Assembly (NCBI GenBank): GCA_003598085.1 | Contig: QZKU01000048.1 | Coordinates: 1-47,767, forward strand | Direction of reading: 5' to 3' | Length of the DNA stretch: 47,767 nt | Source of the DNA: Candidatus Abyssobacteria bacterium SURF_5 | Lineage (GTDB): Bacteria > Abyssobacteria > SURF-5 | Part shown: positions 4,818-46,473 of the stretch, in pieces | How positions within the stretch are numbered: position 1 is the stretch's first letter | Layout: each line of letters opens with the position of its first letter | Notes under the pieces: model-generated | What the model saw: only the letters and a program-made list of their open reading frames with translations | What the model was told of the DNA's origin: nothing | The model's database searches: none | Made by a program: the position numbers and the translations under genes

Positions 4818-6446
4818 ATGTCAGATATTCCAGAAAGCATTCCAAAACCGGAACAGCTGGGAGTGATCGATCAGCAGTTGCCTCGCAGCGACTGGATGGA
4901 TACGCCTGTTGTATTCAAACACGGCAGCTACTGCTACAGCGCAAAATCCAAATTCATGAGCTATCTGGACCTGCCGAACCCGCGGGACTGGTCGCCGATG
5001 GATAAGGATTGGAAACTGCCGAATGACTGGCAAAGGATTATCCACGAGGGCCTTCGCGAGAGACTGTCCAAGTATCGTTCGCTCAAGGTGTTCATGGACA
5101 TCTGCGTAAGGTGCGGCGCGTGTGCCGATAAATGTCACTTCTTCATCGGTTCAGGCGACCCCAAGAACATGCCGGTCCTCAGGGCCGAGCTTCTGAGGTC
5201 CGTCTATCGAAAAGATTTCACTACCGCCGGAAAGATTCTCGGGAAGATTGCGGGCGCACGGGAACTGACGGTGGACGTGCTGAAGGAATGGTACTACTAC
5301 TTCTATCAGTGCACGGAATGCCGCCGCTGCTCTGTTTTCTGCCCATACGGGATCGATACCGCCGAGATCACCATGCTCGCGCGCGAGCTGCTGAATCTGG
5401 TCGGCCTGAACATCGGGTGGACGATCGAGCCGTGCGCCAACTGCTTCCGCACCGGCAATCATCTTGGCATCCAGCCGCACGGATTCGCAGACAGTATTGA
5501 GTTTGCCGTTGACGAGCTCGAGGAGATCACTGGGATTCGGGTCGACGCCCCGATAAACAAGAAGGGCGCGGAGATCCTCTTTATCACGCCCTCAGCCGAT
5601 TATTTTGCCTCTCCGCATTATTACACGCTGCTGGGGTATCTCGCCCTGTTCCACGAGATCGGACTCGACTACACGTGGAGCACGTTTGCCTCCGAGGGCG
5701 GCAACTTCGGCTTGTTCACCTCGCACGAGATGATCAAGCGCTTGAACGCAAAAATGTATGCAGAGGCGAAGCGACTGGGCGTGAAATGGATTCTGGGCGG
5801 AGAGTGCGGCCACATGTGGAGGGTCGTGCACCAGTACATGGATACGATGAACGGCCCGGCCGATTTCCTCCAGGAGCCGGTTTCGCCTATTACCGGGACG
5901 AGGTTCGAGAATGCGCGGTCCACGAAAATGGTCCACATTACGGAATTCACGTCGGACCTGATCCGGAATAACAAACTGAAACTCGATCCCAGCCGGAACA
6001 ATCACTGGAGAGCCACATTCCACGATTCCTGCAATCCGGCCCGAGCGCTCGGCCTGTTCGAGGAGCCAAGATACGTTATCCGCAACGTCTGCAACAACTT
6101 CTTCGAGATGCCCGACAATACCATCCGCGAACAAACCTTCTGCTGCGGCAGCGGCGCGGGTCTGGGCAACGATGAAAACATGGAGATGCGCCTGCGGGGC
6201 GGGCTTCCGCGCGCGAACGCCGTCAGGCACGTGCACGAGAAGCACGGCGTCAATATTCTGCTCTGCATGTGCGCCATCGATAAAGCGACCCTGCCGCCGT
6301 TGATGGAGTATTGGGTGCCAGGAGTCGAGGTGGGCGGTATTCATGAGCTGGTGGCAAATGCGCTGGTGTTAACGGGCGAAAAGGAGAGGACGACCGACGT
6401 ACGCGGCGAGCCCCTCATGAAGGAGGAGGACACGAAGGATGTATGA
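4818..6446 (+). CDS. dsrK: DsrK: HdrD-like catalytic iron-sulfur subunit
   Basis: A 542-residue cytoplasmic-face protein related to heterodisulfide reductase HdrD. Two [4Fe-4S] ferredoxin motifs are seen: CVRCGACADKC (Cys 96, 99, 102, 106) and CTECRRCSVFC (Cys 165, 168, 171, 175). The CCG-type site for the special catalytic [4Fe-4S] cluster includes Cys405 in HDSCNPAR, Cys442-Cys443 in CCGSGAG and the later CMC. DsrK is the proposed site of DsrC trisulfide reduction. I choose the ATG at 4818 because AAAAGGAG ends 5 nt before it; the GTG at 4812 overlaps that site. Its end overlaps dsrJ by 8 nt. Confidence 0.96.
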   Translation: MSDIPESIPKPEQLGVIDQQLPRSDWMDTPVVFKHGSYCYSAKSKFMSYLDLPNPRDWSPMDKDWKLPNDWQRIIHEGLRERLSKYRSLKVFMDICVRCGACADKCHFFIGSGDPKNMPVLRAELLRSVYRKDFTTAGKILGKIAGARELTVDVLKEWYYYFYQCTECRRCSVFCPYGIDTAEITMLARELLNLVGLNIGWTIEPCANCFRTGNHLGIQPHGFADSIEFAVDELEEITGIRVDAPINKKGAEILFITPSADYFASPHYYTLLGYLALFHEIGLDYTWSTFASEGGNFGLFTSHEMIKRLNAKMYAEAKRLGVKWILGGECGHMWRVVHQYMDTMNGPADFLQEPVSPITGTRFENARSTKMVHITEFTSDLIRNNKLKLDPSRNNHWRATFHDSCNPARALGLFEEPRYVIRNVCNNFFEMPDNTIREQTFCCGSGAGLGNDENMEMRLRGGLPRANAVRHVHEKHGVNILLCMCAIDKATLPPLMEYWVPGVEVGGIHELVANALVLTGEKERTTDVRGEPLMKEEDTKDV

Positions 6447-6825
6447 CGGCGGAAAAATCATTGCCGGGTTGGTCATCTTCCTCGGTGTGGTGACTTTCCC
6501 GTTCTGGTACACTCAAGCAAATGAAGAAGCCATTGAGAAACCGCAGTTATTGCTTCCGGCAGACGAGACCGAATGCGTGGAACCCACCGCTTACATGCGG
6601 GCATCTCACATGCAGATGCTCAACGAATGGAGAGACTTCGTCGTTCGGGAGGGACAGGCGACGTACCTGTCCAGCACCGGAAAGATGTACGAGATGAGCC
6701 TCACCCGCACCTGCATGAAGTGCCACACGAGCCGGCAGGAGTTCTGCAACAAGTGTCATGCGTATTCCGGCGTGAGCACTCCGTACTGCTGGGATTGTCA
6801 TGTTGAGCCGAAGGAGAGTGCCTGA
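6439..6825 (+). CDS. dsrJ: DsrJ: triheme cytochrome c
   Basis: 128 residues with one N-terminal membrane anchor (residues about 7-23) and a periplasmic domain with three CXXCH haem c motifs at residues 92-96 (CMKCH), 103-107 (CNKCH) and 117-121 (CWDCH). Cys46, in DETECVEP, is the conserved extra cysteine that in the Allochromatium DsrJ has been implicated as an unusual haem ligand. DsrJ is the periplasmic electron-transfer part of DsrMKJOP. The ATG sits 8 nt inside the dsrK end, after an AAGGAGGAGG ribosome-binding region. The stop overlaps the dsrO ATG. Confidence 0.96.
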   Translation: MYDGGKIIAGLVIFLGVVTFPFWYTQANEEAIEKPQLLLPADETECVEPTAYMRASHMQMLNEWRDFVVREGQATYLSSTGKMYEMSLTRTCMKCHTSRQEFCNKCHAYSGVSTPYCWDCHVEPKESA

Positions 6826-7595
6826 TGAAGAGCCGAAGGAGCTTTCTGAAGATATCCGGGGCCTGCCTTCTCGGGTTGGGAGTGAAACCCGTGCTCAATG
6901 CCTTCGCGCAGGCGGAGCGGATGGAGATCGCGCCGAATCCGAACGCGCTTCGCGCCGGGCGCTGGGCTCTGGTGGTCGATATCACAAAGTGCCGGGACGA
7001 TTGCACCGACTGCATAAACGCCTGCAATCGCGCTCACAATATTCCCGATCTTGGAAGAACGAAAGAGGAAGTGAAATGGATATGGAATGAATCCTACGAG
7101 CACGCTTTCCCGGGCGTTGAGCACGAGTTCGTCGAGGAGCGCGTCAAGCATCAGCCGTTCATGGTGCTGTGCAACCATTGCGATAATCCGCCGTGCGTGC
7201 GCGTGTGCCCGGTTCAGGCCACCTGGAAGCGCGAGGACGGCATCGTAATGATGGACTTCCATCGCTGTATCGGGTGCAGGTGTTGTATGGCCGCGTGCCC
7301 GTATGGATCGAGGAGCTTCAACTGGACCGATCCGCGCCCGTATATTCCCGAGGGGAGGATGAATCCGGACTTCCCGACGAGAACCAAGGGAGTTGTCGAG
7401 AAATGCAATTTCTGCGTCGAGAGGCTCGCAAAGGGACTTCAGCCGGCATGCGTCGAAAGCTGCAGCTCGGGCGTGCTCACCTTCGGAGATCTGGATGATC
7501 CCAATTCTGAGGTGAGGAAAGTCCTTGGAGAGCGTTACTCCATTCAGCGCAAACCCGAGCTTGGAACCAGGCCGAGAGTGTACTATATCCTGTGA
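6825..7595 (+). CDS. dsrO: DsrO: periplasmic ferredoxin-like iron-sulfur subunit
   Basis: 256 residues. The N-terminus is a Tat signal, SRRSFLK followed by a hydrophobic run ([10 protein letters not shown]), so the folded protein is exported with its clusters. Cysteine groups typical of DMSO-reductase B-type subunits follow: [40 protein letters not shown] and [11 protein letters not shown] with a final CVESC. DsrO passes electrons between DsrP in the membrane and DsrJ. Its ATG overlaps the dsrJ TGA (6823-6825); dsrP follows after 7 nt. Confidence 0.96.
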
Positions 7596-7602
7596 GGGAG
7601 CC

Positions 7603-8757
7603 ATGTTGGAAAAAGCTTTTTACGGAAGTCGAAGTTATTACGCGTGGATTCTGTTCTTGCTCATTGTAATCGGGGCGGGCGCCGGCTGCTACGCATATCA
7701 GTTGGTTGACGGCCTTCGCATCACCGGCATGGGCAGAGACATCTCGTGGGGGCTGTACATCGCCCAACTCACCTTCCTGGTTGGCGTGGCGGCGTCGGCG
7801 GTGATGGTCGTCATTCCGTATTATCTGCATAATTACAAAGCATTCGGCAAGATCACCGTTCTGGGAGAATTTCTGGCGGTTTCGGCCGTCACCATGTGCG
7901 GGCTCTTTGTTATCGTCGACCTCGGCACGCCGGCGCGCGCCTTCAACCTGATCCTGTATCCGACCCCCAACTCGATCCTGTTCTGGGATATGATCGTGTT
8001 GAATATGTATCTTGTGCTCAACATCGTGATCGCCTGGAACGTTCTTTCGGCGGAGCGCAAGTCGACGCCGCCTCCCGGATGGGTGAAGCCGCTCATCTAC
8101 CTGTCGATCCCCTGGGCCGTGAGCATTCACACCGTGACCGCTTTTCTCTATGCGGGTCTTCCGGGAAGGCATCTGTGGCTGACCGCAATTTTGGCCGTCC
8201 GCTTCCTGGGATCGGCATTTGCCGCAGGTCCTTCGCTCCTCATACTCCTGTGTCTGCTCGTGAGGAAGGTGAGCAAGTTCGATCCGGGCCGCGAGGCCAT
8301 CCAGAGCCTGGCAAAGATCGTGACGTACGCGCTTATCGCCAGCATATTCTTTGTCGGACTCGAATTCTTTACCGCATACTACAGTCAGGTTCCCGGCCAT
8401 ATACACAGCCTCGAGTACCTGTACTTCGGTCTTGAGGGCCACGCGAAGCTGGTCCCCTGGATGAGGATCTCGGCGCTGCTCGCGATTGTCGCGCTTGTTT
8501 TCCTCGTGAATCCTGCAACGCGGCGGAATGAGAAAACGCTGGCTGTCGCTGCCGCACTCACCTTCATTTCGCTCTGGATCGAGAAAGGGCTTGGCTTGGT
8601 ACTGGCCGGCTTCATTCCCAACCCATTCGAGCATATTACCGAATATTCGCCGACGGCGCCGGAACTCATGATCACGTTCGCTATCTATGCAATTGGATTG
8701 CTGATCCTGACGGTGCTGTATAAGGTGGCCATCTCCGTAAAGGAAGAAGCCGCTTAA
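7603..8757 (+). CDS. dsrP: DsrP: NrfD-family integral membrane quinone-interacting subunit
   Basis: 384 residues, about ten transmembrane helices, NrfD/PsrC family. The early signature [17 protein letters not shown] is typical of DsrP. With DsrO it forms the second quinone-linked module of the complex. The ATG at 7603 is chosen because GAGGGA lies 3-8 nt before it and the protein then starts MLEKAFYGS, as in homologues; the longer in-frame reading from 7525 would lie inside dsrO. It is the last gene of the dsr string: a strong terminator begins 14 nt after the stop. Confidence 0.96.
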
Positions 8758-8771
8758 GCTGAAAGGAATTG

Positions 8772-8810
8772 GCCCCGCCTGTTTTTTCGCAACCGGCGGG
8801 GCTTTCTCTT
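8772..8810 (+). terminator. Rho-independent terminator after dsrP
   Basis: Perfect 8-bp arms GCCCCGCC (8772-8779) and GGCGGGGC (8795-8802) around a 15-nt loop, followed by TTTCTCTTT. It closes the dsr transcription unit and separates it from the signalling operon. Confidence 0.88.
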
Positions 8811-8865
8811 TGTTTGCTGGGGGTCCCAAGCAACCGCTGGCAACCGCACATACTTTTAAATGCTG

Positions 8866-8874
8866 TGATATAAT
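8866..8874 (+). promoter_or_regulatory. Candidate extended -10 promoter of the sensor operon
   Basis: TGA-TATAAT (8866-8874) is a perfect extended -10 element 45 nt before the GTG at 8920. No good -35 hexamer lies 16-18 nt upstream (around 8846-8852). It follows the dsrP terminator, which fits an independent promoter for the three-gene signalling operon. Confidence 0.5.
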
Positions 8875-8919
8875 CCATTTTGAGAAGGAAACGCTCGATC
8901 GGCCTTTTAGGGGACATCT

Positions 8920-9930
8920 GTGAGCGCCAGGAGTCGGATGGGTAAGGTTCTCGGTGAAAAATCTCGAGATTGGCTGTGCCGGCGCGCCGCCGAGTTTTCA
9001 AGCATTCCGGTGGAAGACCTGAAGGTTGTCAGCGACACAACCGAATTCATGAATATCCACCGGGGACACATCCTCGAATTGGACGGGCGGCATTTCCTGG
9101 TGACAGGCTACATCTACGAGGCTCGCTTCGGTCTCAGTGACGAGCCGAAATACTGGGTGAAAAAGGCGATAGATCTGGAAGCGGGGAGCCAGCAGATCGT
9201 CAAGCTTTCGCACCGTGAGGAGTTTCACATGCGTATCGGCCGCCTCAGGATTCGCTGCTACCGGAATCCGCACAAGGAAGCGCAGGTGCTTGAACTTGTC
9301 CGCGGGAACCCCAACTTCATGCAGGGGTATTCTCTGTTCGACGGGCGCGGGAACGAGGTGAGAGTGGTCGATATTATCCGCGGGAAAAGCATTTACGACG
9401 TCATCTTGAACATGAATACGACTCATGAGGAATACTTCTATGGCCCGTTTCCCGGAATTCTCAGAAAAGTCGCGGGCTGCATCGCATCTCTGCAGTTCCT
9501 GCACGATCACAATCTTTGCCACGGCGATATCCGGAACGACCATATCCTGATCGAGCAGGACACCGGGTTGTACCGGTGGATCGATTTCGACCTGACTCAG
9601 GATTTCTCCGACCTCGATATCTGGAGCGTCGGCAATATCCTGCAATTCTGTGTGGGAATGGGGATGAAGACGTTCCGGGAAGTTCTCCAATCAGATGATT
9701 ATCCGGCATCTGTAAAAAATGATCTGTGCGCCGATGACGCCTCGGCCTTTTACGAGCACAGGATCATGAACCTGCAGAAACTTTTCCCATATATTCCCGA
9801 CAGCCTTAACGACATCCTGCTTCACTTCGCAGTGAATACCAACCGATTTTACACCTCGATTTCTCAGATCGTTTCGGATATCGACGCTACGCTCGAGGAA
9901 ATGTCCTCTCCGACGGATACCAGGCCATGA
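8920..9930 (+). CDS. Protein-kinase/aminoglycoside-phosphotransferase-fold protein
   Basis: 336 residues. The catalytic loop reads HGDIRNDHIL (His201, Asp203), and IDFD a little later serves as the metal-binding DFG/DFD segment, so the protein has the ATP-grasping kinase fold of the APH/RIO/Ser-Thr kinase clan. A glycine-rich loop is not obvious, and the N-lobe lysine (VKKAIDLE or IVKLSHRE) is uncertain. The substrate is unknown. The GTG start at 8920 has AGGGGA 5 nt upstream. The stop overlaps the ATG of the histidine kinase gene (ATGA at 9927), so the two are translationally coupled, which suggests that it acts in the same signalling pathway. No transmembrane segment is visible. Confidence 0.75.
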   Translation: MSARSRMGKVLGEKSRDWLCRRAAEFSSIPVEDLKVVSDTTEFMNIHRGHILELDGRHFLVTGYIYEARFGLSDEPKYWVKKAIDLEAGSQQIVKLSHREEFHMRIGRLRIRCYRNPHKEAQVLELVRGNPNFMQGYSLFDGRGNEVRVVDIIRGKSIYDVILNMNTTHEEYFYGPFPGILRKVAGCIASLQFLHDHNLCHGDIRNDHILIEQDTGLYRWIDFDLTQDFSDLDIWSVGNILQFCVGMGMKTFREVLQSDDYPASVKNDLCADDASAFYEHRIMNLQKLFPYIPDSLNDILLHFAVNTNRFYTSISQIVSDIDATLEEMSSPTDTRP

Positions 9931-11450
9931 AACTGCTGAAGCTGAAGAAGAGAATCGGAATCGGTGTCCGCCTGGCTATTATGGTGGCGGTGCTGATCGT
10001 GCTTTCCACCGGTTCCTTTGCATTCTTCAGCCTGATGAAGCAGCGCAGCGAAGCGATGGAACTGTTTGTCCACAACTCGATCAATATGTGCCGGTCACTC
10101 GAGCGCATCCTGCGGTTCAGCATGCTCGAAAACCGTCGCGACGAGATACAAGCGGCAATCCAGCAGATCGCCAAAGAAGACGATATCGACGGCGTGACGC
10201 TGGTGAGCCATCGCGGAGATATTGTTTACGGGGATGCGTTACAGGACCCCGAAAAAGTGACTATCGGGGACAACCGCTGTTCCGGCTGCCACGGCAACGG
10301 CTCGGAGCAGCCGCTTCCGCGGCTGGCTGAGCCGGCAGAGGTTCGGCTGCTGCATGATGCGAAGGTGGCGGAAGTGAGCCTGCCGATCTATAATGATCCG
10401 GCCTGCGCGAATGCGGCCTGTCATGCTCATACGCCGGCCGAAAGCGTGTTGGGCATCATGCAAATGAACATTTCCTATGCGCAAACAAACGAGATGTTGA
10501 ACCGCTCGTATTTTCAGCTCATGGCGCTTTCCATCGTGATCGCCCTGGTCACTTCGCTCATCGTCATGGCGCTCATCCGGCGCTGGGTGTCCAACCCGGT
10601 GAAGGACCTGCTCGACGGCACCCGCCGTGTTGCCGAAGGCGAGATCGGCCATATCATTCCGGTCGGCGAGGCCGAGCTCGGCGGGCTGGCGCGTGCTTTC
10701 AACAAGATGCAGGAGAAACTGCTCTCCAGCCAGCGACAACTTGTCACCGCCGAGAAGCTCGCGTCGATTGGAAAACTCGCTGCGTCGGTCGCGCACGAGA
10801 TCAACAATCCCTTGACCGGCATCTTGACGTTTGCGGAGGATCTGGCGGAGAATGCCGATCACAGCGATCCGCGCCGGTCCGATTTCGAAGTGATCCGGCG
10901 GCAGGCCGTCCGCTGCCGGGAGATCGTTCGGCAGTTGCTGGATTTCTCGCGCCAGGAGAAACCGAATCTGCGGCCGGTGAATGTCAACGAGGTCCTGGTG
11001 CATACGATCGAGTTTATCTCCAAACAGGCGATCTTCAGGAACATCGTGATCACGACTGACCTTGAGAACGATCTGCCTCCGGTGATCGCGGACCCGATTC
11101 AGATAGAGCAGGTGATGCTCGATCTGCTTGTGAATGCCGCTGAGGCCATGTCCGACGGCGGAAACATATTCATTTCTTCGCTGTCGCATCAACGTTCGCA
11201 TGAGGTCGAGGTGGTCGTGCGGGATACCGGGCCGGGCATTGCGGAGGAGAATCTTCCGAGAATATTCGAGCCCTTTTTCTCCACGAAGGGCGGCAAATCA
11301 ATGGGAATCGGCCTCGCAGTCAGTTGGAACATAATTAATCAACATGGCGGCAGGCTCGAGGTCGAGTCGAAGCTGGGTGAGGGAGTCACTTTCCACATCA
11401 TGATGCCTTGGGGAAAGGCGGCGCCGGCCTCGGCCGACGCGGTCGTATGA
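9927..11450 (+). CDS. Membrane sensor histidine kinase with haem c-type sensor domain
   Basis: 507 residues. Order: transmembrane helix (about 14-36); extracytoplasmic domain with a canonical CSGCH haem c motif at 118-122 and a second, spaced variant CANAACH (CX4CH) at 160-166; second helix (about 195-213); HAMP domain; dimerisation/phosphoacceptor domain with His290 in VAHEINNPLTG; and a HATPase domain with DLLVNAAEAM, DTGPGI, FEPFFSTK and GIGLA. The haem motifs suggest sensing of redox state, NO, CO or another haem ligand outside the membrane. It lies just downstream of dsrMKJOP and is coupled to the kinase-fold gene before it; the response regulator follows. Control of the dsr or related energy genes is inference. 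Confidence 0.93.
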   Translation: MKLLKLKKRIGIGVRLAIMVAVLIVLSTGSFAFFSLMKQRSEAMELFVHNSINMCRSLERILRFSMLENRRDEIQAAIQQIAKEDDIDGVTLVSHRGDIVYGDALQDPEKVTIGDNRCSGCHGNGSEQPLPRLAEPAEVRLLHDAKVAEVSLPIYNDPACANAACHAHTPAESVLGIMQMNISYAQTNEMLNRSYFQLMALSIVIALVTSLIVMALIRRWVSNPVKDLLDGTRRVAEGEIGHIIPVGEAELGGLARAFNKMQEKLLSSQRQLVTAEKLASIGKLAASVAHEINNPLTGILTFAEDLAENADHSDPRRSDFEVIRRQAVRCREIVRQLLDFSRQEKPNLRPVNVNEVLVHTIEFISKQAIFRNIVITTDLENDLPPVIADPIQIEQVMLDLLVNAAEAMSDGGNIFISSLSHQRSHEVEVVVRDTGPGIAEENLPRIFEPFFSTKGGKSMGIGLAVSWNIINQHGGRLEVESKLGEGVTFHIMMPWGKAAPASADAVV

Positions 11451-35962: not shown

Positions 35963-38398
35963 TTATCCTTCGACGGGGCTTTCCGCCTTCTGTCCTTGCA
36001 GGATTCGCTGTGTTTCGGCTATCTCCTCGGGTGTAACGGCTTTGCGCAGGCGCTCCATGCGCTGCATCACTTCCTGGAACCGCACGCCTTCGGCGGCGCT
36101 GATCCACTCGAGCGCCAGTCGTTCCTTGCGGATTCCGAGCTTGTCCATCTTCTTCCACAACTTGCCGATGCGGCGCTCCGTCCAATGGTTCGCATTTATA
36201 TAATGGCAGTCGCCGATATGGCAGCCGGAAACCAGAACGACCGGCGCCCCTTTCTCGAAGGCGCGCCACACGAATTTCTCATGAACGCGTCCCGAGCACA
36301 TCGTGCGGATCAACCGGCCGTTGGACGGATACTGAAGCCGCGACACTCCGGCGAAATCGGCGCCCGCGTATGAGCACCAGTTACAGGCGAAAACCGGGAT
36401 CCGCTCCGCCGGCTGCTCTTCAAGGATGGCATCGATCTGCGCCTCGATCTGATCGTCGGTAAAATGATGCATCTCGATGGCGCCAGCCGGACATTCGGCC
36501 GCGCACGTCCCGCAGCCCGCACAGGCGGCGGTCGTGACAACAGCGGGCTTTTTCGCGCGCGTATCGACATCGATGGCATTATACGGGCATACTTTCGCGC
36601 ACAGGCCGCACGAGGTGCACAAATCCGGATTGACTTCCGCCGTGATCGACTCGACCTTCAGGCGTCCTGGATTCATCAGCCGCATCGACCGGGCCGCCGC
36701 GGCGGACGCCTGCGTCACCGATTCGCGGATATCCTTCGGTCCGTCGGCGCAGCCGGCGAAAAAGACGCCGCGCGTGGCGGAATCGACCGGCTGAAGCTTG
36801 GGATGCGCTTCGAGGAAGAACCCTTCGGACGTGCGCTGCAGCGTCAGCATCTCCTGCACAATGTTCATGTCCTCCGGCGGCTGGAGGGCAACCGCCAGCA
36901 CCACCATTTCCACCCGGTGTGTTTCGAGTTCGTTGCTTGCGGTATTCTCGACGGTCAGAATCAGGTCGCGCGTCTTCGGGTCTTCCTTGATTGAGCCGGG
37001 AAGCCCGCGTATGTAGCGCACGCCCGTCCCTTTACTCCGCCGGAACAACTCCTCGAACCCCTTGCCGAACGCCCGAATATCGATATAAAACACTTTCACC
37101 TCGATATCGGGATAGTGCTCCTTCAACATGAGCGTGCTCTTGATCGTGTTCATGCAGCAGATGTTCGAGCAATAGGGACGCCCGCGCGTCTGCGAGCGCG
37201 AGCCGACGCATTGGATGAACGCGATAGATTTCGGTTGTCGGCGATCCGTGAGGCGAACTACCTCTCCCTTGGTCGGGCCCCCCGCATTGATCAGACGTTC
37301 CAACTCGATACTCGTGACGACGTTCTCATACCTGGTGTATCCGTACTCGTCAAGGATCGTCGGATCATAAATATCGATGCCGGTGGCGACAATTATTGTG
37401 CCGACGTCGAATTCGAGCATTTCATCATTCATGTTGAAGTCGATGCAGTGTTTCTCGCACTTCAAGATGCATTTGCCGCAGATTATCGGATTGTGGCCGA
37501 GACAATTCTTCATGTCGACGACATATGCGGAAGGAACCGCCTGGGGAAACGGAGAATAGATCGCCCGGCGCGTGTTCAGCCCCATGTTGAATTCATCCGG
37601 AACGGTGACAGGGCAATCCTTAATACAGTCGCCGCAGGCGGTGCATTCGCCTTCCTTTACGTACCGCGCCCGTTTGAGCACCTGCACGTGGAAGTTGCCG
37701 ACGTACCCCGTGACCTTCTTGACTTCGCTCAGGGTGAGCAGCGTTATGTTTGGATGCCGACCGGCATCAGTCATCTTCGGACCGAGTATTCATATGGAGC
37801 AGTCCATGGTTGGAAACGTCTTATCCAACCTGGCCATGATCCCTCCAATGCTCGGCTCCTTCTCCACGAGGATGACCTTATAGCCGGAATCGGCCAGATC
37901 GAGCGCGGCCTGTATGCCGGCGATTCCGCCGCCGATCACCAGCGTCGAGCGCCGGATCGGGACTTCGGTCTCCGCCCGCGTCTTCAAGCGGCGCGCGCGC
38001 GCGACCGCCGATCGGACGAGGTCGCCCGCCTTGAGGGTTGCGCCTTCCCGATCGTGGCCGTGGACCCAGGAACACTGCTCGCGCAGGTTCGCCATTTCGA
38101 GCAGGTACGGATTGAGGCCGGCCTCGCTGATGCACTGCCGGAACGTCGGCTCGTGCAGTCTCGGAGAGCATGAGGCGACCACGATCCGGTTCAAGCCCTC
38201 TTCCTGAATGTCCTTCTTAATCAGGTTCTGGCCCGGCTCCGAACACAGGTAGCCGTCATGTCGCGCGAGAACGACGTCGGGAAGCTGTTTTGCACGCTCG
38301 GCCACAGCCTCGCAATCGACCACGCCCGCAATATTCAACCCGCAGTGGCACACGTACACGCCGATTCGGCACGTCTCATTTGTTCCCGTTTCTTGCAT
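35963..38398 (-). CDS. hdrA: HdrA-MvhD fusion flavoprotein, selenoprotein (Sec203 at TGA)
   Basis: Read through one in-frame TGA (37792-37790) this is an 811-residue protein; without it there are two pieces with 15 nt between them in the same frame. The N-terminus [18 protein letters not shown] and REQCSWVH are HdrA hallmarks; [19 protein letters not shown] binds FAD. The TGA falls in [19 protein letters not shown], where HdrA normally has Cys. Iron-sulfur motifs follow at 252 ([11 protein letters not shown]), 594 ([11 protein letters not shown]) and 626 ([11 protein letters not shown]). From about 665 an MvhD domain is fused: [21 protein letters not shown] and GCHIGDCHY. HdrA carries the flavin that bifurcates or confurcates electrons. 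The ATG at 38398 has AAGGAG upstream; HdrD lies 14 nt before. Confidence 0.9.
37753..37768 (-). promoter_or_regulatory. Putative bacterial SECIS hairpin
   Basis: On the minus strand GATGCC-GGTC-GGCATC forms a perfect 6-bp stem with a GGUC loop; the loop starts 28 nt after the TGA. E. coli fdhF SECIS also has a GGUC apical loop, and bacterial SECIS loops lie about 16-37 nt downstream of the UGA. SelB would bind here to insert selenocysteine. Confidence 0.75.
37790..37792 (-). other. Recoded UGA: selenocysteine codon 203 of hdrA
   Basis: In-frame TGA at the place of a conserved HdrA cysteine; both sides align continuously to HdrA without a frame change. selA, selB, selC and selD are not in the window. 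Confidence 0.85.
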
Positions 38399-38412
38399 TC
38401 CGCTCCTTCCCC

Positions 38413-39582
38413 CTATTTCCCCGACCATTCGATATGGTCCGCCAGCACCGACACCAAATCCCGTATCTCCAACTTCAACGAACCGCGGCTGTAAGGGTCC
38501 CGCATCGTGCACGTCAGGTGGATCATGCATTTCGGACAGGCGGTAATCAATGTCTCGGCTCCTGTCGATTTCGCCTCCTTCAGGCGCTGAACCTGGACCC
38601 GCTTGGAATAGGCGTCGCAGTTTATGAACGCGTTGTTGCCGCAGCAGAGCGCGCTGTGTTTTGAATTCTCCATTTCCCGAAGCCTCGCCTGCGGAATCAA
38701 CGACAGCAGCGTGCGCGGCGTATCATAACATCCGGATATCCTGCCAAGGCGGCACGGATCCTGGAACGTCAGCTTGCGCTTGAACGGCTTGAACGCGACG
38801 CCACCCTTCTTTATTTCTCGCTCGAGGAGGTGAATCAGCAACGTTACTTTTATGTCGAAGCCCGAAATGACCTTCGGCATGTATGTGCCGAGCGTATGGT
38901 AGCATTCAGGACACGTCACCACGACTTCTTCAACACCTGCCGCTTTGAATTCCTCATAGTTGAGGCGGCACAAGGTTTCAAAGTTTTCCTGGTCGCCAGT
39001 CCACAGCAGATCATGACCGCAGCATCGCTCATTTGCAAGAAGCACCGGTTCTATTGAGAGAAAATTCAGAAGACGCACGCTGTCGCGGATGATTGAAAGC
39101 GTGTCAACCTCGATCCCGGAGAAAAAAACGTCGAAATACGGGGCGCAGCCGGTAAAAAAGGCGATAGGCCCATGAGTCGCCGTCTTTACCCGCGGATCCA
39201 CCCATCCCAGTCTCTCCTGCTGAAGTTCGGGCGACGTCATCATTCGCATCCACGAGTGAAGCGCGCCGTCATGAGCGCGATATCCTCTCAGCCCCTTCGA
39301 TTTTGCCAGCAGCGTGCGCATCTCCAGGATCAGATGACTGATATCGACGCCCGAGGGGCAGCGCTCTTCGCACAGTCCGCACGTCAGGCATTCCCACACG
39401 GAGCTCTCGATAAAGGTCTCGTCCTCGCGCTCGGCGATCAGTTTGTGCGCCAGGAGCCGAGGCGAATACTCTTTTCCTGCAATCAGGCGCGGACACGACG
39501 CGGAACATTTCCCGCACTCCAGACACTGGTGGAGCGAGTGCTTGCGGATTATTTCGTCTATTCTTTTATCGAAGTCGTCCAC
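38413..39582 (-). CDS. HdrD-type (HdrC-HdrB fused) heterodisulfide reductase-like subunit
   Basis: 389 residues. N-terminal HdrC-like part: two [4Fe-4S] motifs, [13 protein letters not shown] (from residue 20) and [14 protein letters not shown]. The C-terminal HdrB-like part has two CCG domains: [18 protein letters not shown] and CPECYHT in the first; [18 protein letters not shown] and CPKCMIHL in the second, sites for noncubane [4Fe-4S] clusters that split disulfides. The natural disulfide is unknown; DsrC trisulfide or CoM-like thiols are possible. Start is GTG at 39582, inside the end of the MvhD-like gene (25 nt overlap), with a weak AGGA site. It ends 14 nt before hdrA, so it probably forms a complex with HdrA. 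Confidence 0.88.
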
Positions 39583-40007
39583 GATGCTTCTCTTTCCTGG
39601 CGTGGTTTCGCTTCATTCGGGCCCAGCGCTTCTATCCGGGCGGCAAAATCCCAAAGAGCCTTTACAAATTCCTCTTTTTCGTGCGTGGCAAAATTCCGCT
39701 CAACAAGCCGCTTTTGTCTGATCCCCAGAAGACGAAGGAGCTTGCGCACTCGCTCTACGTTGACATGCCCGACTTCCGGTCCCGGTCCATACCGGCAATC
39801 CTCATCCTTGCATTCGAGCAAAATGACGCCATCGGCGCCGTATTCGAACGCCCGGAGAATGAGCGCCTGATTGATTCGGCCGATACACATCACCCGCACC
39901 AATCGGAAATTGCGGGGGATCTCCAGCTTGGCCATGCCGGCGGCATTATAGCAGGCATATGGGCTCCAGTTGCAGCAGATTCCCAGCAGATTGACCTGTC
40001 CCATCAT
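39558..40007 (-). CDS. MvhD-like iron-sulfur (delta) subunit
   Basis: 149 residues of the MvhD/FlpD family, which holds a [2Fe-2S] cluster and connects an electron input module to HdrA. Motifs: LGICCNWSPYACYNAAGMAK, RVMCIGRINQALILRAFEYG and LLECKDEDCRYGPG. Compared with the MvhD domain fused to HdrA(Sec) ([19 protein letters not shown]), the first motif has lost the second Cys of CNWC and gained another in YAC, and GCH has become ECK; the cluster ligands are therefore partly moved. Two ATGs (40007, 40004) follow GGAG; the first overlaps the upstream stop (ATGA). Located between the two HdrA-like proteins, it may couple them. Confidence 0.87.
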   Translation of the reverse strand: MMGQVNLLGICCNWSPYACYNAAGMAKLEIPRNFRLVRVMCIGRINQALILRAFEYGADGVILLECKDEDCRYGPGPEVGHVNVERVRKLLRLLGIRQKRLVERNFATHEKEEFVKALWDFAARIEALGPNEAKPRQEREASWTTSIKE

Positions 40008-43000
40008 CGTTCTCCGGAAAACGTCTTCATGACGATATCTTCGAGAAGCTGGTTCGAAAAATAGGGAATATCCATCGCCGTAACGGGGCATCGGCCGACG
40101 CACCCGCCGCAGCCGACGCAGTTGTGACGGATGACCTCCGCGGTATAGATGCCGTGCTGGCTTGATACCATCTTGATCGCGTTAAATGGGCAGATTTCGG
40201 CACACCGCCCGCACCCGCGGCACAGCTCCGGATCAACGCGCGGACTCAGCTCGTGATCCTTCAAGAACGCTTCCGCCGTCACCGTCGCCACTTCCGCGGC
40301 AAGCGCCGTGCCGGCCTCGAACGCGTTCACCCGCTTTAACGTGCGCGGCAATACCCGATAGAGCCCGAGTTGGGGCGTATGGAAAAAGGCAAAATTGTAC
40401 CGGTACAGTTTCTTCAGTCCCATCATGTTCTCCTGGATCGCGAGCGGAAGCACGTTCTCATCCGTCAAACAGATCACGCTCGCGCGCCAGGTGTGATGAA
40501 CGCCGCCGGAAACAAGGGAAACCCTGAAATCGCCCAGATGGCCGCTGATTTCCTGTATCTCCGCTTCTTCCACATGAGTGATGGACCGGCCGATCTTCCC
40601 ATCAATCGGCCTTCGTGCGATGAAATCGGGAAGTCTCGCACCGCCGGCAGTGGTACATTTGTGGATCAGGCGCACGTGAAATCCCTGCAGGCTCAAGTTC
40701 ATCGCGCAACTGATTCCCACTTCGGAGCCTCCAAGGATCATGATGTTCTTGCCGATCTCGGTGATACCCTGTCGCAGACGGCCGAGCAAATGCACTCGGA
40801 TCAAGGCTCCCTTTAATATTTCACGGGCCTTCTCGAATATCTCATCGTCCGTCTGTCCTCCCGGCAGCAGATGATCCTTGATGTTGATCATCTCGAAGTG
40901 ATTCCGCGGCAAACCAAGCCGGTCGAACAGATGAATGCGGGCGCGCGTTCTCTGATCGTTGCACGAGATGCATTGAAATTCGAGCGGACAGCAGACGCAA
41001 GAGCCGAGAATCACGCGATTCAGCCGTTTTTCACGAACCGAGCGCGCGATTTGATCGGCCCCACGCGGATGACATGCGGAGAAAATGATCTCGCTATGGG
41101 CGACCGACGGCACGCGCGCCGCCAGGTCCATGATGCGATCCATTACCGCCTTCGGGGCCATCGCGCCATTGCAGTTGCAGATGAAGATTCCCAGGCGTTC
41201 GTCCCCCGCAGGTTCGGGCGGCTCGACTTCATTCGGAATGGCGGTCACTCTCAAAGGAGCGGCCTCTGTCATCGCCCGGCCCGCGGCCGAGCTTCCGGAT
41301 ACCAGCACATCGACCAGATCGATTTCCGCCTTGAGATCGCTCAGATGGAAAATCCTTTTGCCCTCGACATGATCAATGCTGCCGATTTCCTGCGAATCCG
41401 CGATAATGACGCTGGGACACGAAAATTCGAATCGTCTTCCTTCGCGAAAATGGTCGATCGCTCCGATATCGGTGCAGACGCTCTCGCAAACCCTGCACTC
41501 GCAGCACGCGCCGCACTGCAGGCACCGTTTTGCCTCGGCCACTGCCTGTTCCGGCGTCAGCCCGAAATCGACCTCTTCAAAATCGCGCCGCCTCACTTTC
41601 GGCTGGCGCTGAGCCATCTCCGGCCGGGACTGCTTCGGAATGTCTTCAGATATCTCAACATATTCGCCGACGCCTCTGCTCTCGGCCGTCAGCTCGGAAA
41701 ATTGAGACCGGTTTCTTGTGAGATGTTCGATCATGAACGCCGCGGCCTTCCGGCCGGAGGCCATCGAGCCGATGACCGTAGACGGACCGGTCACGACGTC
41801 GCCGGCCGCGAAAACGCCGGGGATCGAGGTTGAAAAATCATCGCCCGCCTGAATACGGCCTGCCTTGTCGGTTAAAAAACCTTCCTGCGCCAAGCCGAAT
41901 TCCTTCAAATGGGGCCGCTGTCCGATCGCGACGATCACCGTCTCCGCCTCGATTGCAAAAGTCTCGTCTGAATCGTATGCTATCCGCCGCGCACCTTGAG
42001 AGTCGGGTTCCGACCAGTGAGCCGGCCTGCAGATGATCTTGTTAACCTGATTTGCCGCGCCTTCGAATTCCACCGGCGCCGCCCCCAGAACGAACTTGAC
42101 GCCCTCTTCGCGCGCCTCCCGGATCTCGCGTGGATGGGCGGGCATCTCATTCTCTCTTTCTATTGCCAGGATAGTGACTTCTTCAGCCCCCAGCCGCAAA
42201 GCGGTCCGCGCGGCATCCATTGCGGAATTGCCCGCTCCGATCACGACGGTTCGCGCTTTCACTCTTCCTTCTTTATAAAGGTTCATTCTGCTGAGAAACG
42301 CGACGCAGTGCTCGATGCCCTCGAAATCTTCGCCCGGTATATTCAGCCGCAAGTCCTCATGCGTGCCTGTCGCAAGCAGGATGGCTTTGAATCCCTGCTT
42401 GAGAAGAGCGGCAGCCGAATCTATCTTGTGGCCGGTTCGGATTTCGACGCCGGAACCCGCAATGGCCAGTACTTCCGCATCGAGCACTTTCCGCGGCAAC
42501 CGGAACGAGTTGATGCCGGCTCGCAGCATGCCGCCCGCTTCCGGCAGCGCCTCGAAAACGGTGACCGAGAAGCCGGCCCGGTTGAGAAAATGCGCCGCCG
42601 TCAGGCCGGCGGGTCCGGACCCGATGATTGCCACGCGCTCTCCATTATGGTCGCTTTTCGCACTGTCGAGTTTCACCGGGCCGTGTTCCGCCTCGTAGTC
42701 GGCAAGGAATCGTTTCACGTCGCGAATGGCGATCGGCTCATCCAGTTCCTTCCTGCGGCACGAGGCCTCGCACGGATGATGGCAAACTCTGCCGCAGATG
42801 CCGGGAAGCGGGTTATCCTCCTTTATTACACGCAACGCTTCCTCGAAACGCGAGGCTGCCGCTAGAGCCATGTACGCCTGCACGTTGACTCCGAGCGGAC
42901 AGTTCACGCGGCATTCTGCGAGCTTGCGTTTATTCAACTCTAACGCTCGCGAGGGACAGTATGCGGGACTCCTGCTGAGGGGAGGATGATCGGAATTGTT

Positions 43001-43378
43001 GAGCGGGCAGACCTCCATGCAGCGGCCGCAGCCGGTGCAGAGATCATAATCAATGTACTGCGGATTCTGCGTGACAACCGCCCGGATGCCGACCGGCGAT
43101 TGTTCGAGCGATTCCAGCCGGGCGCCGGTCAGCGGCGTGACCAGCGGATGGCGCGTGACGCGCAAATAGAGCGGGCGAAACTGGAAGTTGATGTCGTCCG
43201 GCCATTCGGAAAAGGTCTCGGTTCCGCCCGGCAACTTCAGAAAATGCGGCGCGTTCGTCACCCACACGACCGGAATGCCCGATTGCGCCAGGTCTTCGGC
43301 CGCTTTGAGCGCGCCGTAGCCCGAGCCGACGAGCAGGATCGCCTTCTTCGGCTGTTTCGATGCTTTCCGCGGCGTCAT
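40004..43378 (-). CDS. HdrA-like / GltD-type flavoprotein fusion with ferredoxin domains
   Basis: 1124 residues. Order: short nucleotide-binding start (LLVGSGYGALKAAEDLAQSG); ferredoxin motif CTGCGRCMEVCP; Fer4_20-like region with CRVNCPLGVNVQAYM and CGRVCHHPCEASC; GltD/NfnB-type FAD and NAD(P) domains (VAIIGSGPAGLTAAHFLNRA, VVIGAGNSAMDAARTALRLG, FAAGDVVTGPSTV); an HdrA-like half with FICNCNGAM and a second, degenerate flavin site (ILGGSEVGIS, Ser in place of Gly); and two C-terminal [4Fe-4S] motifs, CRGCGRCAEICPFNAI and CVGCGGCVGRCPVTAM. It could move electrons between NAD(P)H, ferredoxin and the Hdr subunits. ATGA couplings link it to korC (43378) and the MvhD-like gene. Confidence 0.88.
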   Translation of the reverse strand: MTPRKASKQPKKAILLVGSGYGALKAAEDLAQSGIPVVWVTNAPHFLKLPGGTETFSEWPDDINFQFRPLYLRVTRHPLVTPLTGARLESLEQSPVGIRAVVTQNPQYIDYDLCTGCGRCMEVCPLNNSDHPPLSRSPAYCPSRALELNKRKLAECRVNCPLGVNVQAYMALAAASRFEEALRVIKEDNPLPGICGRVCHHPCEASCRRKELDEPIAIRDVKRFLADYEAEHGPVKLDSAKSDHNGERVAIIGSGPAGLTAAHFLNRAGFSVTVFEALPEAGGMLRAGINSFRLPRKVLDAEVLAIAGSGVEIRTGHKIDSAAALLKQGFKAILLATGTHEDLRLNIPGEDFEGIEHCVAFLSRMNLYKEGRVKARTVVIGAGNSAMDAARTALRLGAEEVTILAIERENEMPAHPREIREAREEGVKFVLGAAPVEFEGAANQVNKIICRPAHWSEPDSQGARRIAYDSDETFAIEAETVIVAIGQRPHLKEFGLAQEGFLTDKAGRIQAGDDFSTSIPGVFAAGDVVTGPSTVIGSMASGRKAAAFMIEHLTRNRSQFSELTAESRGVGEYVEISEDIPKQSRPEMAQRQPKVRRRDFEEVDFGLTPEQAVAEAKRCLQCGACCECRVCESVCTDIGAIDHFREGRRFEFSCPSVIIADSQEIGSIDHVEGKRIFHLSDLKAEIDLVDVLVSGSSAAGRAMTEAAPLRVTAIPNEVEPPEPAGDERLGIFICNCNGAMAPKAVMDRIMDLAARVPSVAHSEIIFSACHPRGADQIARSVREKRLNRVILGSCVCCPLEFQCISCNDQRTRARIHLFDRLGLPRNHFEMINIKDHLLPGGQTDDEIFEKAREILKGALIRVHLLGRLRQGITEIGKNIMILGGSEVGISCAMNLSLQGFHVRLIHKCTTAGGARLPDFIARRPIDGKIGRSITHVEEAEIQEISGHLGDFRVSLVSGGVHHTWRASVICLTDENVLPLAIQENMMGLKKLYRYNFAFFHTPQLGLYRVLPRTLKRVNAFEAGTALAAEVATVTAEAFLKDHELSPRVDPELCRGCGRCAEICPFNAIKMVSSQHGIYTAEVIRHNCVGCGGCVGRCPVTAMDIPYFSNQLLEDIVMKTFSGER

Positions 43379-43965
43379 ATTCCATTCCGGATTTCATCTT
43401 GTTTCGAGAGGCTTCTTAAAATGGCCTCGCCATACTCGCGGCCGCGTTCGAATGCCTTCTGGTTTTTCTCCTTCGTCTGTGGTGGCACCGAACTCAGAAC
43501 CGCCTTCAGAAGCGAATCAGGGTTTACCAGGTCGCTCACCGCCGAAAGAAATCCGAGCATGACGATGTTCGCCATCATCTCGTTTCCCAGCTCCCCCGCG
43601 AATCGGGTGGCCGGAATGTTGTATGTGACCAGGCTCGGATCAAGCTCGCCGACCTGAATCAAATCCGAATCCCAGATGAACAGGCCTCCCGGGATCAGCA
43701 AGTCTATATTCTTCGTGTAGGCTTCCTGGCTCATGCATACCAGAACCTGCGGCTCCTCAACGTATGGAAACAGAATTTCCTCATCGCTGATCATCACCTG
43801 AGCCGAACACGAGCCGCCGCGCGCCTCGGGCCCATACGATTGGGTGAGGGTCGAATGCCTGCCGTCATACAATGCGGCGGCCTTCCCCAATATGTTGCCG
43901 GCCAGCACAATGCCCTGCCCGCCAAAACCGCTGATAAGGATTTCCCTTTCCTTCTTATCCTGCAT
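43375..43965 (-). CDS. korC: 2-oxoacid:ferredoxin oxidoreductase, gamma subunit
   Basis: 196 residues. SGFGGQGIVLAGNILGKAA is the signature of the gamma (KorC/PorG-type) subunit, followed by SYGPEARGGSCSAQVMIS. It joins the alpha and beta subunits in the CoA-dependent oxidation of a 2-oxoacid with reduction of ferredoxin. The ATG at 43965 is inside the last 11 nt of korB; longer frames upstream would lie wholly in korB. Stop overlaps the next ATG. Confidence 0.92.
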   Translation of the reverse strand: MQDKKEREILISGFGGQGIVLAGNILGKAAALYDGRHSTLTQSYGPEARGGSCSAQVMISDEEILFPYVEEPQVLVCMSQEAYTKNIDLLIPGGLFIWDSDLIQVGELDPSLVTYNIPATRFAGELGNEMMANIVMLGFLSAVSDLVNPDSLLKAVLSSVPPQTKEKNQKAFERGREYGEAILRSLSKQDEIRNGI

Positions 43966-44866
43966 GAGTTTTCGCCTCTTTCGCAGGCTCGCGTTTCGCC
44001 GCCGGCTTTTCGCCCGCCGGCCAGGCGGGCGCCTCGCGTCTGCTGACAAGCTGATAATTATCGAGGAACGTCGGCCGCTCGATATCGATGAATTTGCCTA
44101 CCACAAGGTTCTTATTGAAATCGAGCGTCGCCTCCTTCGGGTCCACGTCATTTCGAATCACCGACTTCTCGTGATAATACTTCACGATGTCGATGCCTTT
44201 TCCCATCTTATTGCGGCGGCCAAACGACGTCGGGCACGGCGAGAGAACTTCGACAAAACTGAATCCCCTCTTGTTCATCGCTTCGGTAATCGAGTCGGTC
44301 AGCCGCCTGATGTGAAGCGCCGTCCACCTCGCAACATAAACCGCTCCCGCTGCGGCCGCCATGTAACAGAAATTGAAGGGTTCTTCCGGACATCCGATGA
44401 TGCTGGTAGTCGTCTTCGCCCCGAACGGAGTGCTCGGAGCAAGCTGGCCACCGGTCATGCCGTAGTTGAAGTTGTTCACGCAGATGACCGTGAGGTCCAT
44501 GTTCCGTCTTGCCGCATGAATGAAATGGTTGCCGCCGATCGCCAGCAGGTCGCCGTCACCCGAACACACGAGCACGCGCGACTGCGGCCGCGCCAGCTTC
44601 AGGCCCGTGGCAAACGGAATCGCGCGCCCGTGAGTCGTATGATATGAGTCGACCTTTATGTAACCCGCCATTCGGCCCGTGCAGCCGATGCCGGATACCA
44701 TCGCGACATCGTCAAGCGGCGCCGTAGATTTTTTTATTGCCGAGAGGACGCAGCCGAAAACGGTGCCAATGCCGCAGCCCGAGCACCAGATGTGCGGGAT
44801 GCGATCGGTGCGCAGTATCTCATCCTGAGGATGCACCGGCGCATGTTGCTTCGTTTTCTTTGTCAT
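43955..44866 (-). CDS. korB: 2-oxoacid:ferredoxin oxidoreductase, beta (TPP) subunit
   Basis: 303 residues. CSGCGIGTVF near the start, a TPP motif around CSGDGDLLAIGGNHFIHAAR and VNNFNYGMTGGQ are diagnostic of KorB-type beta subunits. Like other 2-oxoglutarate-type enzymes this subunit relies on a separate ferredoxin (korD). The substrate is most likely 2-oxoglutarate, but other 2-oxoacids are possible. GGAGGAGCG precedes the ATG; the start overlaps the korA stop (ATGA, 44863). Confidence 0.92.
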   Translation of the reverse strand: MTKKTKQHAPVHPQDEILRTDRIPHIWCSGCGIGTVFGCVLSAIKKSTAPLDDVAMVSGIGCTGRMAGYIKVDSYHTTHGRAIPFATGLKLARPQSRVLVCSGDGDLLAIGGNHFIHAARRNMDLTVICVNNFNYGMTGGQLAPSTPFGAKTTTSIIGCPEEPFNFCYMAAAAGAVYVARWTALHIRRLTDSITEAMNKRGFSFVEVLSPCPTSFGRRNKMGKGIDIVKYYHEKSVIRNDVDPKEATLDFNKNLVVGKFIDIERPTFLDNYQLVSRREAPAWPAGEKPAAKREPAKEAKTHAG

Positions 44867-46035
44867 TTACGCTCCTCCAGCACCGCCTCGACAGCGGCAA
44901 CAATCGTGCGCGGGCTGAGAATCGAGCCGCCCGCATGCGGCACCAGCCGCACATCGCACTTGCCGCGCGCGCACCGCTCGAGTTCCAACACCATCTGCCC
45001 CATGTTGATTTCCGGCATGATCATTGCCTTTACCCGGCCGGCAAGGTCCTCGATCGCCTTTTCCGGGAACGGCCAAACAGTGTTCAGCTTCAGTAAGCCG
45101 GCGCGCATCCCCTTCGCGCGCGCCTCGCAGACCGCGCGCCGGGCCGACCTCGCGCTTATGCCGTAAGCGACCACCGCCACCTCGGCATCATCCAAAGCCG
45201 CCGTCTCATACCGAATGATCTTATCGGCGTTGTTCTTGATCTTGTTGACGAGCCGCTCTATCATCTGCTTCTGTGTCGCGTCATCCATCACCGGATATCC
45301 GCGCTCGTCGTGAGTCAGGCCGGTTACGTGGATGCGGTAGCCGTCGCCGAAATTTGCCATCGGAGCGACTCCGTCGGAATCCGGCTTGTACGGAAGAAAT
45401 TGAGCAGGCGCGACAGTCGGCTTCGGGCGCGAGACGATCTCGATCTCATCCTCCGCCGGAATCACCACTTTCTCCGTCATGTGGCCGACCACTTCGTCCG
45501 CCATTATCATCACGGGCAAGCGGTATTTCTCGCTCAAATTGAACGCCCAGACGGTGAAGTCGAACATCTCCTGCGGGCTTGAGGGCGCAACCGCGATAAT
45601 CTCGTACGGCCCGTGCGAGCCCCATCGAGCCTGCATCATGTCGGCCTGGCCGACCAGCGTCGGCAACCCTGTGCTCGGGCCGGCTCTCTGAACATTGCAC
45701 ACCACGCACGGCGTCTCGGTGCACAGGCCGAGCCCGATATTTTCCATCATCAGCGAGAAACCGGGACCGGAGGTGCTTGTCATCGCTTTCATGCCGCCCC
45801 AGCTTGCGCCGAGGACCGCCGCAATCGAAGCAAGCTCATCCTCCATCTGAATATAGATGCCGCCGATATCCGGCAGGCGCGCCGACATCCGCTCGGCAAC
45901 CTCGGTAGCCGGCGTGATCGGATATCCGCCGAAGAAGCGACAGCCGGCCGCAAGCGCGCCCTCGCAGCACGCGTAGTCGCCGTTCATGAAATGTGTACCC
46001 ATAAGGACCGCCTTCGCCGCCACGGTATTCGTCAC
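44863..46035 (-). CDS. korA: 2-oxoacid:ferredoxin oxidoreductase, alpha subunit
   Basis: 390 residues. FFGGYPITPATEVAERMSAR, MEDELASIAAVLGASWGG, TSTSGPGFSLMMENIGLG and QRAGPSTGLPT are hallmark KorA motifs (pyrimidine-binding and domain II of the PFOR superfamily). The start codon is uncertain: the frame opens with GTG at 46035, which touches a GGAG; GTG 46023 or ATG 46002 are alternatives and still retain the conserved core. The korD gene lies upstream across a 171-nt gap with a hairpin. Confidence 0.92.
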   Translation of the reverse strand: MTNTVAAKAVLMGTHFMNGDYACCEGALAAGCRFFGGYPITPATEVAERMSARLPDIGGIYIQMEDELASIAAVLGASWGGMKAMTSTSGPGFSLMMENIGLGLCTETPCVVCNVQRAGPSTGLPTLVGQADMMQARWGSHGPYEIIAVAPSSPQEMFDFTVWAFNLSEKYRLPVMIMADEVVGHMTEKVVIPAEDEIEIVSRPKPTVAPAQFLPYKPDSDGVAPMANFGDGYRIHVTGLTHDERGYPVMDDATQKQMIERLVNKIKNNADKIIRYETAALDDAEVAVVAYGISARSARRAVCEARAKGMRAGLLKLNTVWPFPEKAIEDLAGRVKAMIMPEINMGQMVLELERCARGKCDVRLVPHAGGSILSPRTIVAAVEAVLEERK

Positions 46036-46206: not shown

Positions 46207-46473
46207 TCAGGGTTTGGAGGGAGCTTCAACGGAATATATGGCGAAATCGGGGCAGATGACTTCGCAGAAATGGCAGTTGACACACTGCGATTCGTCCTCC
46301 ACCTCAGGGTAATGGTATCCTTTGAGATTGAACGCTTTCGAAAGGACCAGCACGTTGCGCGGGCAGTACTCGATGCAGTACTGGCACCCCTTGCATCGTT
46401 CCCGCAGAACGACAACCTTTCCCTTGCTCGTCTGGATGGTATGCAGGTCCAGTGGAGTCCGCCAATATTTCAT
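46207..46473 (-). CDS. korD: KorD-type ferredoxin (2 x [4Fe-4S])
   Basis: 88 residues. Two [4Fe-4S] motifs: CKGCQYCIEYCPRNVL and CVNCHFCEVICPDFAI; in between, KGYHYPEVED is typical of the delta subunit of 2-oxoglutarate:ferredoxin oxidoreductase. It passes electrons from KorB to the acceptor. Start set at ATG 46473 (GAGGGA 8 nt upstream); a longer frame goes to 46503. First gene of the kor-hdr string. Confidence 0.9.
   Translation of the reverse strand: MKYWRTPLDLHTIQTSKGKVVVLRERCKGCQYCIEYCPRNVLVLSKAFNLKGYHYPEVEDESQCVNCHFCEVICPDFAIYSVEAPSKP

Follow-up and report, generated by a model that had tools for sequence, protein, structure and literature searches.

Sequence evidence for selenocysteine in a fused HdrA-MvhD protein of Candidatus Abyssobacteria bacterium SURF_5

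The gene at positions 35963-38398, on the minus strand of a 47,767-nucleotide stretch of Candidatus Abyssobacteria bacterium SURF_5 DNA (contig QZKU01000048.1; the whole stretch is called the window), is a genuine selenoprotein gene as judged by comparative sequence analysis, and its reading as a pseudogene is dismissed. The predicted product is an 811-residue flavoprotein, an HdrA-MvhD fusion of the HdrA2 type with selenocysteine (Sec) at residue 203, an identity to which we assign a probability of about 0.96. UGA codon 203 would be decoded as Sec by bacterial SelB and tRNA-Sec, directed by a GGUC-loop hairpin just downstream. HdrA with Sec and HdrA2 fusions have each been described before, and the window gene adds a further example, in a small phylum.

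Reading frame, identity and orthologues

When TGA is translated as Sec (U), the minus-strand frame 38398..35963 contains exactly one recoded codon, U203, in 811 codons and then ends at a stop. The TGA (37790-37792, minus strand), placed by the frame and by orthologue conservation, lies in the motif DCSI-U-ILGPKM, where the CxxC column reads C200-S-I-U203. The initial annotation, whose coordinates for the gene are correct and whose strand was unstated, had described a single TGA inside a continuous HdrA frame and had expected automatic annotation to split the gene. The translation bears out the first point; as for the second, ORF calling with the standard code does yield two ORFs, at 37790-38530 and 35963-37774. 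Genes of this kind are overlooked or split by annotation pipelines, a difficulty also encountered with the HdrA of Methanocaldococcus in a published survey (PMC12054007). In a profile search with Cys at residue 203, the HdrA-MvhD protein scored 1225.5 bits against NF040770 (HdrA2; cut-off 1100), with the match covering residues 11-792 and profile positions 1-775 of 777. The fusion to MvhD described in the initial annotation is also real: an MvhD (FlpD, PF02662) domain occupies residues 668-782 at the HdrA C terminus in the same frame (36053-36397, minus strand; E 4.9e-44).

The orthologue set comprised 24 genes, 19 with TGA (the window gene included) and five with Cys. Among 386 sampled genomes, 21 had a strong match, 19 with TGA at codon 203 and two with TGC; three further orthologues, that of Desulfobulbus rhabdoformis among them, came from named records, and all encode Cys. 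The 18 further TGA-bearing orthologues, from 17 families, all carry the TGA at codon 203, and the five Cys orthologues have TGT or TGC there. Two genes from genomes of the same phylum and family (G001 and G002, 86% and 84% identical) have TGA at the same codon; another genome, G041, was left out of site scoring because of a run of N at codon 203. With TGA at this codon in 19 of 24 orthologues and TGT or TGC in the other five, the UGA is more than a chance occurrence. The survey suggests that Sec in the fused HdrA-MvhD is the common state within one bacterial clade.

Because Cys orthologues have TGT or TGC at the site, and TGA is one nucleotide from either, the codon could be imagined as a nonsense mutation, real or produced by sequencing error, in an ordinary Cys-HdrA. 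The same TGA, however, occurs in 19 separately assembled genomes, and this conservation across genomes refutes a pseudogene or sequencing error, which we regard as extremely improbable.

Hairpin and selection around the TGA

A bacterial-type SECIS hairpin, GAUGCC-GGUC-GGCAUC, identified by conservation and covariation, starts 21 nt after the TGA (37753-37768, minus strand). Its GGUC apical loop starts 27 nt after the TGA and resembles that of the E. coli fdhF SECIS. The 16-mer GAUGYC-GGUC-GRCAUC is found 21 nt 3' of the TGA in 18 of the 19 Sec orthologues and in none of the five Cys orthologues; the nineteenth Sec orthologue (G385) keeps the loop and only four of the six pairs. Codon and RNA signal are thereby retained in many anaerobic bacteria that are not related to one another. 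When synonymous codons were resampled according to each gene's own usage, the share of trials in which both stem and loop reappeared ranged from 0 to 3.4% among genes. Hairpin cells were paired in 98.2% of cases, compared with 17 to 65% when the partner was slid. One pair swaps between U-A and C-G in eight cells, as high a value being reached in 0 of 500 shuffles; covariation is limited to this one of the six pairs. The fold energy of the 51-nt segment is ordinary relative to shuffles (z -0.63), and the case for the hairpin thus rests on conservation.

The coupling of this hairpin to the TGA is a further argument against a pseudogene or sequencing error, and so is the selection acting on the gene. 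Among three same-phylum genes (the phylum is small, and three species were compared), dN/dS was 0.04-0.11 upstream and 0.02-0.06 downstream of the TGA; purifying selection is equally strong on either side. Synonymous divergence among these genes is near saturation; in the hairpin codons, about 5 to 6 nucleotide differences would be expected and 0 or 1 are observed. Such strong downstream purifying selection, together with nearly unchanged hairpin codons, excludes decay. The initial annotation had named accumulating damage in close relatives as grounds for refutation, and no decay was seen 3' of the TGA.

The gene might instead encode two separate functional proteins, an HdrA N-terminal piece stopping at the TGA and a remainder restarting just downstream, as the ATG start of the ORF 35963-37774 shortly 3' of the TGA would allow. 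The break would nevertheless fall within the FAD/CxxC motif, and this motif is unbroken in the Cys orthologues and in solved structures; the hairpin with its GGUC loop would also be left unexplained. We consider this arrangement very unlikely and prefer a single protein with Sec at residue 203.

Selenocysteine machinery and other candidate selenoproteins

The source genome (145 contigs, 98% complete) uses Sec, given the presence of tRNA-Sec, SelA, SelB and SelD and of TGA codons in selD and in an MvhD gene on contig C67; with HdrA-MvhD, these amount to at least three candidate selenoproteins. The tRNA-Sec, with anticodon UCA, is on contig C101 (67.5 bits; gathering score 47), selA and selB are adjacent on C41 (588 and 381 bits), and selD is on C42 (388 bits), the three proteins all scoring above cut-off. 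The initial annotation had proposed a search for exactly these components. In the window, no Rfam gathering-level match was obtained and no tRNA was found by ARAGORN; tRNA-Sec is encoded on a different contig, as stated. A full Sec machinery in the genome again speaks against a pseudogene or sequencing error. SelA was above cut-off in all 18 further Sec genomes and SelB in 17 of them, with a partial match of 227 bits in G166; in G258, one of the two genomes with TGC, no SelA reached the cut-off.

Since the frame is open when UGA is taken as a residue, readthrough or reassignment to another amino acid, such as Trp or Cys, may also be considered. Against this, the genome keeps SelA, SelB and tRNA-Sec(UCA), the TGA of selD sits at the established Sec position UxxK, and other window genes, for example in the rest of the Kor-Hdr cluster, use TGA as a stop. 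Decoding as another residue is therefore as improbable as a pseudogene, and Sec remains the preferred residue at codon 203.

The selD gene (L079, C42:20143-21069) has its own in-frame TGA at SGG-U-ACK, followed by a possible GGUC-loop hairpin. The MvhD paralogue on C67 (L037, 7794-8159) carries its TGA within the GCHIGDCHY motif (G-U-LEGQCHF) and is a second Hdr-linked selenoprotein candidate. In the HdrA paralogues of the same genome on C67, C145 and C97, Sec is absent at the equivalent site.

Gene cluster, role of residue 203 and related systems

HdrA-MvhD is the last gene of a Kor-HdrL-MvhD-HdrD-HdrA cluster in which all genes share the minus strand. The neighboring 2-oxoacid oxidoreductase genes reported in the initial annotation are corroborated by domain and NCBIfam matches upstream of HdrA-MvhD: the alpha subunit KorA (44863-46035; NF006412, 579.9 bits against a cut-off of 411), a KorB-like beta subunit (43955-44866; PF02775, with a best NCBIfam match of the 2-oxoglutarate type below cut-off) and a KorC-like gamma subunit (43375-44049; PF01558, below the NCBIfam cut-off), all belonging to a 2-oxoacid:acceptor oxidoreductase. 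A small 4Fe-4S ferredoxin (46207-46473) is a probable KorD on the strength of its CxxCxxCxxxCP motif, present twice. The HdrL-like protein (40004-43378) combines, according to domain and family searches, Fer4, a GltD-type NAD(P)H/FAD domain, the HdrA N-terminal domain and two 4Fe-4S clusters. It is followed by a separate MvhD (FlpD) assigned by domain match (39558-40103, the start probably being at about 40007) and by an HdrD-like (HdrC+HdrB-like) Fer4 and CCG iron-sulfur protein (38413-39582; PF02754 and Fer4 domains). G001 and G041 show the same order, as does G002 up to the contig end; G056, G059 and G008 have Kor with HdrL- or tandem HdrA-like genes in a similar general order. In the tandem HdrA paralogues of these clusters (L075, L076 and L077), the equivalent codon is likewise TGA, and the same hairpin lies downstream of it.

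Residues 9-214 of the query align without gaps to residues 3-208 of 5odc_A (M. thermolithotrophicus HdrA), so that residue 203 corresponds to chain residue 197, a Cys. The placement of the TGA at a conserved Cys, made in the initial annotation, is thus upheld: solved HdrA structures have Cys opposite U203, and CxxU is a listed form of HdrA (PMC13188914). In the HdrA dimer, Cys197 of the thioredoxin-reductase domain is reported to be a ligand to the partner protein's N-terminal Fe-S cluster (PMC9012536, which gives a different organism name for the 5odc structure). We moderately favor the view that Sec203 replaces Cys197 and would act as a selenolate ligand to the [4Fe-4S] cluster of the neighboring subunit; an HdrA2 trimer proposed without a partner HdrA (PMC12054007) would leave this trans-ligand role open. 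The HdrL-like protein of the window has the cysteines of the HdrA N-terminal domain and lacks the CxxC/U site, which is also absent in its orthologue L071; its cluster may therefore need a ligand from HdrA-MvhD. Heterodimers have been proposed for HdrA pairs with complementary losses (PMC9012536). More tentatively, and at less than even odds, Sec203 could provide a selenolate ligand in trans for an N-terminal [4Fe-4S] cluster, perhaps the one in HdrL, in a complex coupling 2-oxoacid oxidation directly to bifurcation, with some lineages (G059 and G139) having converted the whole motif to UxxU. If Sec does occupy an Fe-S ligand position between subunits, the reason for using selenium there could be tested by comparison of Sec, Cys and UxxU forms.

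A soluble bifurcating Kor-Hdr complex is the likeliest role of the cluster, considering its conserved order, the missing CxxC/U site of HdrL, and the heterodimer proposal. HdrA-MvhD, the HdrD-like protein, MvhD, HdrL (NAD(P)H-type) and Kor would together form a soluble electron-bifurcating or -confurcating complex, in which electrons may pass among ferredoxin reduced by 2-oxoacids, NAD(P)H and an acceptor of the disulfide or thiol type. We give such a complex about an even chance; its putative partners, its substrate and the direction of electron flow are read from gene order.

HdrA2 of Methanosarcina acetivorans (HdrA2B2C2; NF040770) has the same HdrA-MvhD fusion, the match being full-length and above the curated cut-off, and the HdrA2-type fusion is known in Bacteria and Archaea (PMC5296606). 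Residue 203 is Sec here, whereas no selenocysteine is mentioned in that study, and one HdrD-like protein stands here in place of HdrB and HdrC. As the HdrA2 fusion is a known class, its combination with Sec is less unusual than the initial annotation implied; its statement that Sec occurs at this HdrA site elsewhere agrees with the literature on the CxxU form (PMC13188914). Bacterial HdrA proteins with Sec were on record by 2006 at the latest (PMC1794560), and those of Methanocaldococcus earlier (PMC2933860). Sec is shared with the HdrA of Methanococcales, Asgard archaea, Syntrophobacter fumaroxidans and Desulfobacterium autotrophicum; for Sec-HdrA, the listed motif is CxxU, with repeated clustering with mvhD/frhD (PMC1794560, PMC2702500, PMC11227280, PMC13188914). 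In those groups, however, MvhD/FrhD is reported to have a gene of its own next to that for HdrA, whereas it is fused in the window gene, and archaea use another type of SECIS. One review files Sec-HdrA under NF040770 (PMC13188914); no detailed description of Sec and the MvhD fusion together in HdrA was found in the literature searched. The HdrL of D. autotrophicum (an Hdr/glutamate-synthase fusion) has the same mix of GltD and HdrA, followed by mvhD, as 40004-43378 (PMC2702500), although the latter sits between KorC and MvhD/HdrD and is without the CxxC/U site. Kor is likewise interleaved with bifurcating Hdr in the rTCA clusters of sulfur oxidizers, where flxABCD-hdrABC is interspersed with korABCD and a Kor-Hdr link has been proposed (PMC6315080); by comparison, no Flx genes were identified here, and the part of the NAD(P)H module is likely played by the GltD-type domain.

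The Cys-HdrA of D. rhabdoformis (L042, 8001-10397) falls inside the Sec clade with strong support in the tree, and it keeps a 5-bp remnant of the hairpin stem; this nesting and the stem remnant suggest a Sec-to-Cys reversion. Two orthologues, L051 (in G059, a single 5.0-Mb contig) and L086 (in G139), carry TGA at codon 200 as well as at codon 203, so that the motif reads U-A-I-U. This UxxU form of HdrA is absent from the two reviews searched, which list CxxU. G059 and G139 belong to different families and form one clade in the HdrA-MvhD tree. On contig C9 of G139, selB (5606-7423) lies directly beside the UxxU HdrA-MvhD gene (7725-10127).
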